From Vicinamibacteraceae bacterium (GTDB taxonomy: Bacteria > Planctomycetota > Phycisphaerae > Phycisphaerales > UBA5793), in contig WYBR01000129.1 in assembly GCA_011525805.1 (NCBI GenBank), forward strand, positions 1 to 35,441: DNA of 35,441 nucleotides. The letters are read 5' to 3'. The notes beneath the pieces are model-generated. The model ran no database searches, had not been told where the DNA came from, and was given only the letters and a program-made list of their open reading frames with translations. Made by a program: the position numbers and the translations under genes. Of the stretch, positions 685 through 35,418 are shown piece by piece (position 1 is the stretch's first letter; the number at the start of each line of letters is the position of its first letter).

Positions 685-2715
685 ATGCCCGACCGATCGA
701 CTGCTCGCAGCCCGCATACGAACCCTGCGCTCCTCGCCCAGTTTGGCGCGCCGGAGGAGACGACTGAGTACTACTCGCCCGTGCCCAAGGGCTATCTGCC
801 CGGCCGGCACCGCTACGTGGCCGTGTTCGGCACGGTCATGTCCGGGCTGGGCAAGGGCATCTTCTCGTCGTCAATCGCCAAACTCCTCAAGGACAAGGGC
901 TTGTCGGTCGCCCCGATCAAACTCGAGGGCTACCTCAACATCGACGCGGGCACGCTCAACCCCTATCGCCACGGCGAAGTCTTCGTCCTCGACGACGGCA
1001 CCGAGTGCGACATGGACCTGGGCACGTACGAACGCATCCTCGATCAGAACCTCTCCCTGGCCAACTTCACCACCGCGGGGCGCATCTACTCGACGGTTCT
1101 GGAGCGCGAGCGGCTGGGAGGGTACCTCGGCCGCGACGTGCAGATGATCCCGCACGTGACGGGCGAGGTGAAGCGGCTGCTGCGGCAACTGGCGATGACG
1201 GGCGCGCCGCCCCCGGCCGCGTCCTCGCCTCCACCCCGGCCCTCCGCCGCACCCCCACCCCGGCCCTCCCCCGCAGAGCCGGGGGAGGGAGTTGTCGGCG
1301 GGCCGGCGGATGTCGTCTTCGTCGAAGTCGGCGGGACGGCGGGCGACTTTGAGAACGGCTTCTACATCGAAGCCCTGCGCGAACTGGCGTTTGAGGAAGG
1401 CCCCGGCAGCGTGTGCTTCGTGGCGCTCACCTACGTGATCGAGCCGGAGATCCTCGGCGAGCAGAAGTCCAAGGCAGCCCAATTGGGCATCAAGCGATTG
1501 CTCGAGGTCGGCATTCAGCCGCACATCGTCGCCTGCCGCGCCAAGAACCCCGTGACGAACACAGTGCGGCAGAAGATTGCGATGTTCTCCAATGTGCCGC
1601 TCAACCGCACGTTCTCGATGCACGATCGCGAGTCGATCTACGTCATCCCCGATGCGCTGCGGGCGCAGGGGCTGGACCGGCAGGTGCTGTCGATCCTGAA
1701 CCTGCACGACCGGGTGAACCAGGTGACCGAAGACGCGGCTCGCGAGAAGTGGGGCGGGTTCGTCGCGTCGCTGACGCGCCCCAAGAAGCACAAGGTGACG
1801 ATCGGCATCACCGGCAAATACGCCGCGCTGCGGGACGCCTACGCCTCGATCGACAAGGCCCTGGAGCATTGCAGCGCCGAACTCTCGGCCGAGATCGACG
1901 TGAAGTGGATCGACACGACGGAGATCAGCGAGAAGAACGTGGCCGGGGCGATGAAGGGGGTCAACGGCATCATCGTGCCCGGCGGGTTCGGCGCCCGCGG
2001 CGTCGAGGGCAAGATCGCCTGCGCCCGACACTGCCGCGAGAATCACATTCCCTACATGGGGATCTGCCTCGGCTTCCAGGTGGCGGTGATCGAGTATGCG
2101 CGGAATGTCCTGGGCCTGAGCGGCGCGAACTCGACGGAGTTCGACGCGAACTGCGCCGATGCGGTCATCAGCGAGTTGCCCGAGCAGAAGCAGATCGAGG
2201 GCCTCGGCGGGACGATGCGGCTGGGCGGTCAGGAAGTGGTGATTGAGCCGGACACGCTCGCGGCGTTTCTCTACGCCGACAGCCCGCAGCGCCGCGCGGC
2301 GGGATCTCAGACCCCAGGTCTCAAGTCTCAAGCCGTCTTCGTGCGCGAGCGCTTCCGCCACCGCTACGAGGTTGAGCCGAAGTACGTCGATCGATTCCAG
2401 GCGGCGGGGATGATCTTCTGCGGCCGGCATCCAAAGCATCCGATCATGCAGGTGCTGGAGTTGCGGCATGAGGATCATCCGTACTTCATCGGCGGGCAGT
2501 TTCATCCGGAGTTGACGAGCCGGCCGCTGCAACCCAACCCGCTTTTTGCGGGGCTGATCGCGGCGGCGGCGCAGCACGCGCGGCCGGGCCTGCGGCCGGA
2601 GGAGGTGTCGGCCCGCTGGCTGCGCCCTTTCGTGCCGAGCACCTCGACCGCCACGGCTGAGTCGCCCGCGGTCTCGATCGCCTCTCCGGGCCTTCCGACA
2701 GCCCTGGCGCGGTGA
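685..2715 (+). CDS. pyrG: CTP synthase (glutamine-hydrolysing)
   Basis: Makes CTP from UTP, ATP and glutamine in the cytoplasm, the last step of pyrimidine nucleotide synthesis. At 676 residues it is much longer than the usual ~540. The synthetase domain carries the P-loop-like GLGKG (about 54-58), the Lys in PIKLEGY (79), the Mg ligands in CDMDLGTYER (Asp 111) and VEVGGTAGD (Glu 214). The glutamine amidotransferase domain has the nucleophile Cys in GICLGFQ and the His/Glu pair in GQFHPEL. Extra length comes from a ~42-residue N-terminal extension, a Pro/Ala/Ser-rich insertion at 174-207 between the kinase-like motifs, a second short insertion near 533-552, and a ~35-residue tail. Both insertions look like repeat DNA at base level. 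A GTG at 781 would remove most of the N-terminal extension. The synthetase part is divergent from the E. coli enzyme but the catalytic residues are retained. Confidence 0.96.
   Translation: MPDRSTARSPHTNPALLAQFGAPEETTEYYSPVPKGYLPGRHRYVAVFGTVMSGLGKGIFSSSIAKLLKDKGLSVAPIKLEGYLNIDAGTLNPYRHGEVFVLDDGTECDMDLGTYERILDQNLSLANFTTAGRIYSTVLERERLGGYLGRDVQMIPHVTGEVKRLLRQLAMTGAPPPAASSPPPRPSAAPPPRPSPAEPGEGVVGGPADVVFVEVGGTAGDFENGFYIEALRELAFEEGPGSVCFVALTYVIEPEILGEQKSKAAQLGIKRLLEVGIQPHIVACRAKNPVTNTVRQKIAMFSNVPLNRTFSMHDRESIYVIPDALRAQGLDRQVLSILNLHDRVNQVTEDAAREKWGGFVASLTRPKKHKVTIGITGKYAALRDAYASIDKALEHCSAELSAEIDVKWIDTTEISEKNVAGAMKGVNGIIVPGGFGARGVEGKIACARHCRENHIPYMGICLGFQVAVIEYARNVLGLSGANSTEFDANCADAVISELPEQKQIEGLGGTMRLGGQEVVIEPDTLAAFLYADSPQRRAAGSQTPGLKSQAVFVRERFRHRYEVEPKYVDRFQAAGMIFCGRHPKHPIMQVLELRHEDHPYFIGGQFHPELTSRPLQPNPLFAGLIAAAAQHARPGLRPEEVSARWLRPFVPSTSTATAESPAVSIASPGLPTALAR
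1264..1289. repeat. Palindromic hairpin inside pyrG, loop CAGAGC
   Basis: A perfect 10-bp stem (CCCTCCCCCG at 1264-1273 against 1280-1289) encloses the hexaloop CAGAGC (1274-1279). It lies inside the in-frame Pro-rich insertion of pyrG (1204-1305), preceded by CCACCCCGGCCCTCC-type sequence repeated twice. The same loop, in either orientation, caps the intergenic hairpins at 7095-7360 and 35269-35418, though the stem sequence is unrelated and the GGTGC flank is absent here. Confidence 0.75.
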
Positions 2716-7010: not shown

Positions 7011-7094
7011 GAAAAGTCACGGAGGGGCCCTTTCCGTCCTCTTCACTCAGGCCCGCGAAGCATGGCACCGCGCGGCGGAGTTCAGAGATGGTGC

Positions 7095-7360
7095 CATGCA
7101 TTGACCCGCTCTGGGGTCGATGCATGGCGGCGGGCCAGGGCGCTCGATTGGTGGTGCCATGCATTGACCCGCTCTGGAGTCGATGCATGTCGAGCGGGCA
7201 AGGGCTCTCGTGGGGTGCCACTGCACGCTCGCGGCTCTGAGCGACAGTGCAGTGCGAAGGGCAAGGATGCTCGTCCTCGCCGGCGCTTCGGCCTGGTCGT
7301 GAGACGCGATACGTCGGCGTTTGCACTCTCGCCATGCTTCGCCCAGAGCGGCGAAACATG
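7095..7360. repeat. Array of four hairpins with common GCTCTG/CAGAGC loop
   Basis: Hairpin 1: arms 7095-7107 and 7114-7126, loop GCTCTG, one G-T pair. Hairpin 2: arms 7158-7170 and 7177-7189, same loop, same stem family. Hairpin 3: arms 7219-7233 and 7240-7254, loop GCTCTG, a different stem beginning CACTGCACG, 12 of 15 positions paired. Hairpin 4: arms 7333-7343 and 7350-7360, loop CAGAGC, a third stem, in the opposite orientation. Read in one orientation each is preceded by GGTGC, and hairpins 1-3 are followed by GGGCMAGG and a CTCG box, giving modules of roughly 62 bp. The gap 7011-7412 has no gene otherwise. A half copy (GCGAAGCATGGCACC) lies at 7054-7068. Confidence 0.85.
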
Positions 7361-7412
7361 GCACCGAGCGCCATTGCGCCCATCCGCCCTACTCTCTTGT
7401 GGGACCACCACC

Positions 7413-35239: not shown

Positions 35240-35268
35240 AGGCTCTTGGCTCGCGCCTGTCCGCCCGC

Positions 35269-35418
35269 CATGCTTCGCCCAGAGCGGCGAAGCATGGCAC
35301 CGCCGCTCTTACATGGGTGCCACTGCACGCTCGCGGCTCTGAGCGAGAGTGCAGTGCGAAGGGCAAGGGCGCTCGATTGATGGTGCCATGCATTGACCCG
35401 CTCTGGGGTCAATGCATG
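35269..35418. repeat. Cluster of three hairpins with common CAGAGC/GCTCTG loop
   Basis: Hairpin A: arms 35269-35279 and 35286-35296, loop CAGAGC, perfect 11 bp, followed by GCACC. Hairpin B: arms 35321-35335 and 35342-35356, loop GCTCTG, 13 of 15 paired, preceded by GGTGC. Hairpin C: arms 35387-35399 and 35406-35418, loop GCTCTG, perfect 13 bp, preceded by GGTGC. These are the three stem types of the array at 7095-7360 in another order. B and C are followed by GGCAAGGGCG. The array may continue beyond the window. Confidence 0.88.

Follow-up and report, generated by a model that had tools for sequence, protein, structure and literature searches.

Why should short intergenic hairpins keep one loop while their stems differ? 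The window analysed here, a stretch of 35,441 nt that is a complete contig (C118) of a 4.54 Mb genome in 138 contigs (G000), carries seven hairpins with the loop GCTCTG, each flanked by GGTGC and grouped in two intergenic clusters. All seven, first described in an earlier note on this DNA, are present and fold. That note proposed that the loop is recognised by a REP-type transposase, or that stems are exchanged by recombination, and advised looking for a RAYT gene beside the largest cluster. We have followed the hairpins from the window through the source genome, its relatives and a wider set of RAYT loci.

Hairpins of the window

The window holds the three stem types originally described: type A (CATGCATTGACCC; loops starting at 7108, 7171 and 35400) and type B (CACTGCACGCTCGC; 7234 and 35336) on the forward strand, and type C (CCATGCTTCGCC; 7344 and 35280) on the reverse strand. 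Genome-wide there are four. The stems are not altogether unrelated, as had been claimed, A and C having their bottom 6-7 bp (GCCATGC) in common. Every hairpin folds, those at 7171 and 7234 being the least well paired, and the 15 bp stem of B is imperfect, since it carries a constant G.A mismatch. Cluster 1 reads C- A+ A+ B+ C- and cluster 2 reads C- B+ A+; tandem copies are spaced by 63-64 bp rather than the roughly 62 bp first given. Cluster 1 fills the gap behind an ORF identified by its NF003585 match as a Si-specific NAD(P)+ transhydrogenase (sthA). The features are as follows.

7011..7412, no strand: intergenic gap occupied by cluster 1, lying between sthA (NF003585 match of the upstream ORF) and the following gene; in the congener G001 the same gene pair has a hairpin-free gap of ~80 bp
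7041..7074, reverse: decayed type C hairpin, an eighth copy, 5' arm intact and 3' arm eroded (sequence, repeat D2)
7090..7128, forward: type A REP; tag GGTGC 7090-7094, loop GCTCTG 7108-7113 (sequence, fold)
7153..7189, forward: type A REP; tag GGTGC 7153-7157, loop 7171-7176 (sequence)
7214..7254, forward: type B REP; loop G[GCTCTG]A 7233-7240, tag GGTGC 7214-7218, G.A mismatch in the stem (type B consensus; weak fold)
7259..7273, forward: tail box GGGCAAGG...CTCG, common to A and B elements (consensus 3' flank)
7331..7365, reverse: type C REP; tag GGTGCC, loop GCTCTG 7344-7349 (sequence, fold)
35267..35302, reverse: type C REP; tag GGTGCC, loop 35280-35285 (sequence, fold)
35316..35356, forward: type B REP; tag GGTGC, loop 35336-35341 (sequence, fold)
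35382..35418, forward: type A REP at the contig end; tag GGTGC, loop 35400-35405 (sequence, fold)

The window has no excess of the bare hexamer (17 occurrences vs 28 expected); the signal lies in its position in hairpin loops.

A separate palindrome occurs within a coding region: the CTP synthase ORF (685..2715) contains an in-frame, GC-rich palindromic repeat, CTCCCTCCCCCG[GCTCTG]CGGGGGAGGGCCGGGGTGGGGG, on the reverse strand at 1225-1300, with further copies in L014 (9623 and 9729), L077 (19315), L088 (19964) and L055 (4454) whose loops are GCTCTG, GCTTTG or GCTCCG.

A genome-wide REP family

The window hairpins belong to a family of REP elements spread through the genome, in which loop and tag are constant and stems differ. 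Searching the whole genome with up to 3 mismatches yielded about 131 copies of B, 89 of D, 39 of C and 38 of A, some 297 in total and so beyond the 100 per genome that marks a REP, all of them lower bounds because hairpin arrays break the assembly; reversed-pattern controls for the four types gave 0 matches across the whole genome. Many contigs (C1, C23, C46, C34, C40, C48, C118) begin or end within such arrays. Type D (CATCGATCGCCGCC) is missing from the window and is the second commonest type. It has the same G.A mismatch as B, which is constant at stem position 9 in 89 of 93 B copies and is found in 58 of 59 D copies. The tail GGGCAAGGGCGnTCG is common to A and B, and C and D carry a variant of it. 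Pairing of head and tail (TGCC with GGCA), seen in the A and B folds, was considered as a general feature and rejected, as it misfits D. A literature search with the letters of the repeats returned nothing relevant.

Our counts rest on genome searches and on about 0.9 Mb of sampled stretches. In a 0.80 Mb sample picked mostly irrespective of hairpins, GCTCTG proved commoner than any other hexaloop, as predicted: it closes 14 of 150 hexaloop hairpins with stems of at least 10 bp, and another 16 in the form G[GCTCTG]A. The one-base variant GCTCCG comes next with 7, then an unrelated loop with 5; among the 64 hairpins of shuffled sequence, the top loops are listed once each. The pattern GTGCCAN8-14GCTCTG matches 126 times in this genome vs 5 for its reverse, and loop variation consists mostly of transitions (GCTTTG, GCTCCG, GCCCTG).

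The claim that pairing was kept while bases changed holds between genomes and for a few copies here (C3:46157 and C50:93987 carry the same paired stem change as versions in G001), but such changes are rare within the genome: 14 compensated double changes vs 66 broken single ones, covariation too sparse to inform. Because compensated changes are so rare, most copies must be recent amplifications. The conservation of the loop among recent copies of one genome is partly due to recent descent. An open-frame test of intergenic position at +-300 nt, which is weak because of the high GC, gave a genome-wide value of 0.48, mildly below the 0.69 of random positions.

Arrangement of the arrays

The copies, up to 13 in a cluster, obey an orientation rule to which the sampled loci show no exception: A and B point one way and C and D the opposite way in all 149 pairs of neighbours no more than 300 nt apart, the 39 same-class pairs being co-oriented and the 110 different-class pairs inverted. 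Three spacings between loop centres prevail: 58 nt where B and D have their heads turned inward, 63 nt in tandem and 73 nt where the heads point outward. Within an array, A elements alternate with B elements at an equal spacing of 63-64 bp. The suggestion of stem exchange by recombination is borne out only in part: the arrays have two slots, one used by A and B, the second by C and D.

RAYT genes of the source genome

The search for a RAYT among the clusters succeeded: a RAYT gene lies inside a dense B/D array at G000:C40:16298-16843 on the reverse strand, with B and D hairpins on both sides. It matches NF047646 (REP-associated tyrosine transposase) above cut-off (E 3.8e-27) and scores far below cut-off against NF033573, on the IS200/IS605 side. 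The best PDB match of its family profile is the E. coli TnpA_REP 4er8 (E 1.1e-12), followed by IS200/IS605 transposases, and the HuH and Y residues are invariant. The genome has two divergent RAYTs of this type, unlike a multi-copy IS-like transposase; the second (C82) is 35% identical to the first and scores 72 bits against NF047646, just below the cut-off of 80. The C40 enzyme probably spreads the hairpins. We found no RAYT in this genome that matches types A and C; such a gene may be lost or unassembled, as many of the 138 contigs end in these repeats.

Two further observations were made at these genes. The C82 RAYT (L183, G000:C82:19000-26500) is flanked by a REP family of its own, E, with the form GGCATGGCGTCGCG[CTT]CGCGTCGCTATGCC and the 63 bp tandem steps of the A/B arrays. 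Elsewhere (L002 / L070, G000:C60:1-6000), a valyl-tRNA-synthetase-like ORF seems to contain TSRAREEAGFAS repeated in tandem and in frame, and the same stretch gives a weak Y1_Tnp match.

Relatives in the same genus and order

The nearest named relatives of the C40 RAYT, picked up with an alignment query where one protein alone had returned none, are in Phycisphaerales MAGs, and the source organism is thus most likely a Phycisphaerales planctomycete. A sister RAYT in G001 (60% identical; support 97/90) has B/D-like hairpins on its flanks, with stems of the form CACTGAACGCTTGC/CATCGAACGCCGC: both partners of a base pair have changed, the GCTYTG loop is kept and the G.A mismatch survives in two of three. 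Within G001, C-like hairpins of the form CATGCTTCATCG[GCTCTG]CGTGAAGCATG flank a RAYT at C24, and B/D types one at C59. G039, from another family of the same order, has a RAYT flanked by CATGGTCTTG[GCTCTG]CAAGGCCATG, and two congener RAYT loci (L178 and L179) show no clear hairpins. Overall, GTGSCA..GCTYTG stands at background level in the congeners G001-G003 and G005, so that most copies there are indistinguishable from chance by pattern alone, and only G004 lies above it (36 vs 16).

G001, G003 and G004 keep sthA and its neighbour in synteny. Between the two genes lie 402 bp with five hairpins (four intact, one decayed) in the source genome vs ~80 bp with none in G001; at this one orthologous site compared, the hairpins are lineage-specific, a difference that probably reflects gain rather than loss. 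Downstream of sthA, G004 (L192) and G003 (L194) carry an unrelated inverted repeat, AGCCACGGGTGGAGC...GCACCCGTGGCTACG, as if the gap were a favoured landing site.

Survey of RAYT loci

Across 99 RAYT loci, nearly all planctomycete, a GTG[CG]C-tagged hairpin lies within 250 nt of the RAYT in 59, against 9 for a control zone 630-900 nt away. The tags of 180 RAYT-near hairpins include GTGC (116), GTGG (36), CGTC (5) and GTAG (1); in the source genome GTGC belongs to A, B and C, and GTGG to D and some others. GCTYTG loops occur on unrelated stems beside about a dozen RAYTs, including L113, L208, L209, L218, L229, L249, L258 and L271. Loop classes, assigned by hand, track the RAYT tree with 23 changes vs a shuffled mean of 32, and none of 200 shuffles was as low.

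Proposed mechanism and alternatives

With a probability of roughly 0.85, we read these hairpins as REPs in arrays of BIME/REPIN type, dispersed by RAYTs of the HuH/Y1 single-strand type that read tag and loop rather than stem sequence. During replication, one strand would fold into the hairpin; the RAYT would recognise the 5' tag (GTGC or GTGG, then CA) and the hexaloop GCTYTG, together with the constant G.A mismatch in B and D, and would cut and rejoin single strands, the elements moving as inverted pairs (A or B facing C or D). Stem bases, being weakly read, would drift under the constraint of pairing, leaving a constant loop on interchangeable stems. That planctomycete RAYTs may read tag, loop and B/D mismatch is suggested by the REPtron-like anatomy and by assays of TnpA_REP from S. 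maltophilia and Marinomonas, in which loop bases were essential and stem-base swaps had a modest effect (PMC8266576). Loop recognition, cleavage and the handling of A and C by the same enzyme are likewise put forward as expectations of this model. The loop-recognition proposal of the earlier note gains support from the RAYT in the B/D array and from planctomycete relatives with tagged hairpins. Several points count against the model. B and D carry a constant stem mismatch, whereas in S. maltophilia a stem mismatch harms cleavage (PMC8266576). Most tags here are GTGC, whereas GT[AG]G is the canonical form in the literature. The missing RAYT for types A and C, the loci L178 and L179 with no clear hairpins, the part of recent descent in loop conservation and the assignment of loop classes by hand also weigh against it.

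A less likely competing account assigns each of four REP families a cognate RAYT of its own, some of these since lost; loop and tag would then be merely inherited, and no enzyme would read the stems interchangeably. The separate C-type and B/D-type RAYTs of G001 fit it, as does the report that each tnpA_REP has its own REP family (Quentin 2018); it sits poorly with a single RAYT flanked by both B and D, whose stems are wholly different, with the alternation of A and B at a fixed spacing, and with the outlasting of stem by loop in other families. One enzyme may serve all four types: A and B have array slots in common, but the RAYTs of G001 with B/D and with C hairpins are separate.

It is very improbable that the hairpins are host-function elements (terminators, gyrase/IHF-type BIME sites or mRNA stabilisers) kept for expression control and not moved. 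They are intergenic in the window, and REPs have known secondary roles (PMC3733652); however, they are lineage-specific at an otherwise syntenic site, form clusters of up to 13 in arrays with an internal orientation rule and enclose a RAYT, while the window hairpins are followed by no T-run and an Rfam scan of the window found no match to a curated RNA family. High GC does produce many chance hairpins, but the hypotheses of one tandem repeat in decay or of palindromes arisen by chance are refuted by the counts, exact genome-wide copies standing against none in controls, and by the loop enrichment and four distinct stems.

Extended to the phylum, reading by tag and loop leads to a broader proposal, to which we give even odds: Planctomycetota would hold a third large REP class, tagged GTG[CG]CA and served by RAYTs that recognise tag and loop but not stem sequence, with the loop class (GCTYTG, CTTG, TCYT, GCA) following the RAYT lineage and stems turning over freely, one enzyme in the source genome tolerating four stems in two orientation classes.

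Comparison with known systems

REPs, BIMEs and RAYTs are already known, and so is this kind of system. GTAG and CGTC REP families have been reported in Planctomycetes (PMC3733652). A GTGC-dominant tag class, a hexaloop shared over several stems and a two-class orientation rule were not found in the REP literature examined, although the R. baltica REP consensus of PMC3733652 may hold a precedent for the tag. The family offers a natural stem-swap experiment on REP recognition: the tag, loop and mismatch that a RAYT must read are set apart from stem bases that it can ignore, a question to date addressed with SELEX in three proteobacterial systems. The findings further suggest that most Planctomycetota REPs escape searches limited to the tags GT[AG]G or CGTC.

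The Class 3 TnpA_Y1 of Planctomycetes (Quentin 2018) share the phylum and have atypical hairpins beside the gene, but with the tag CnGA and the motif Y----Q, in contrast to GTG[CG] and Y---NP here. IS200/IS605 elements (IS608, ISDra2) have the same HuH/Y1 chemistry and recognise hairpins through a loop base and an extrahelical base; unlike them, the present system has few RAYT copies, hairpins dispersed without the gene and an NF033573 score far below cut-off. CGTC-tagged REPs (Di Nocera 2013) are also tagged short palindromes in dimers, with a different tag, borne by only 5 of our 180 hairpins, and without a known dedicated transposase. The closest parallel is with REPtrons and their BIMEs or REPINs (the Y and Z REPs of E. 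coli, the SMAG REPs of S. maltophilia, Pseudomonas REPINs), which likewise comprise palindromes of 20-40 nt in hundreds of copies, arranged in inverted-pair arrays, with several types per genome, a 5' tag at the foot of the hairpin and hairpins flanking a HuH/Y1 RAYT gene. REPtrons mainly carry the tag GTAG, whereas here it is GTGC (or GTGG); none of the 2018 subclass motif rows is an exact match for the FWQxGGGYDRN and YIHxNPV motifs of the planctomycete RAYTs; and here one hexaloop is common to four stem types under a strict two-class orientation rule.
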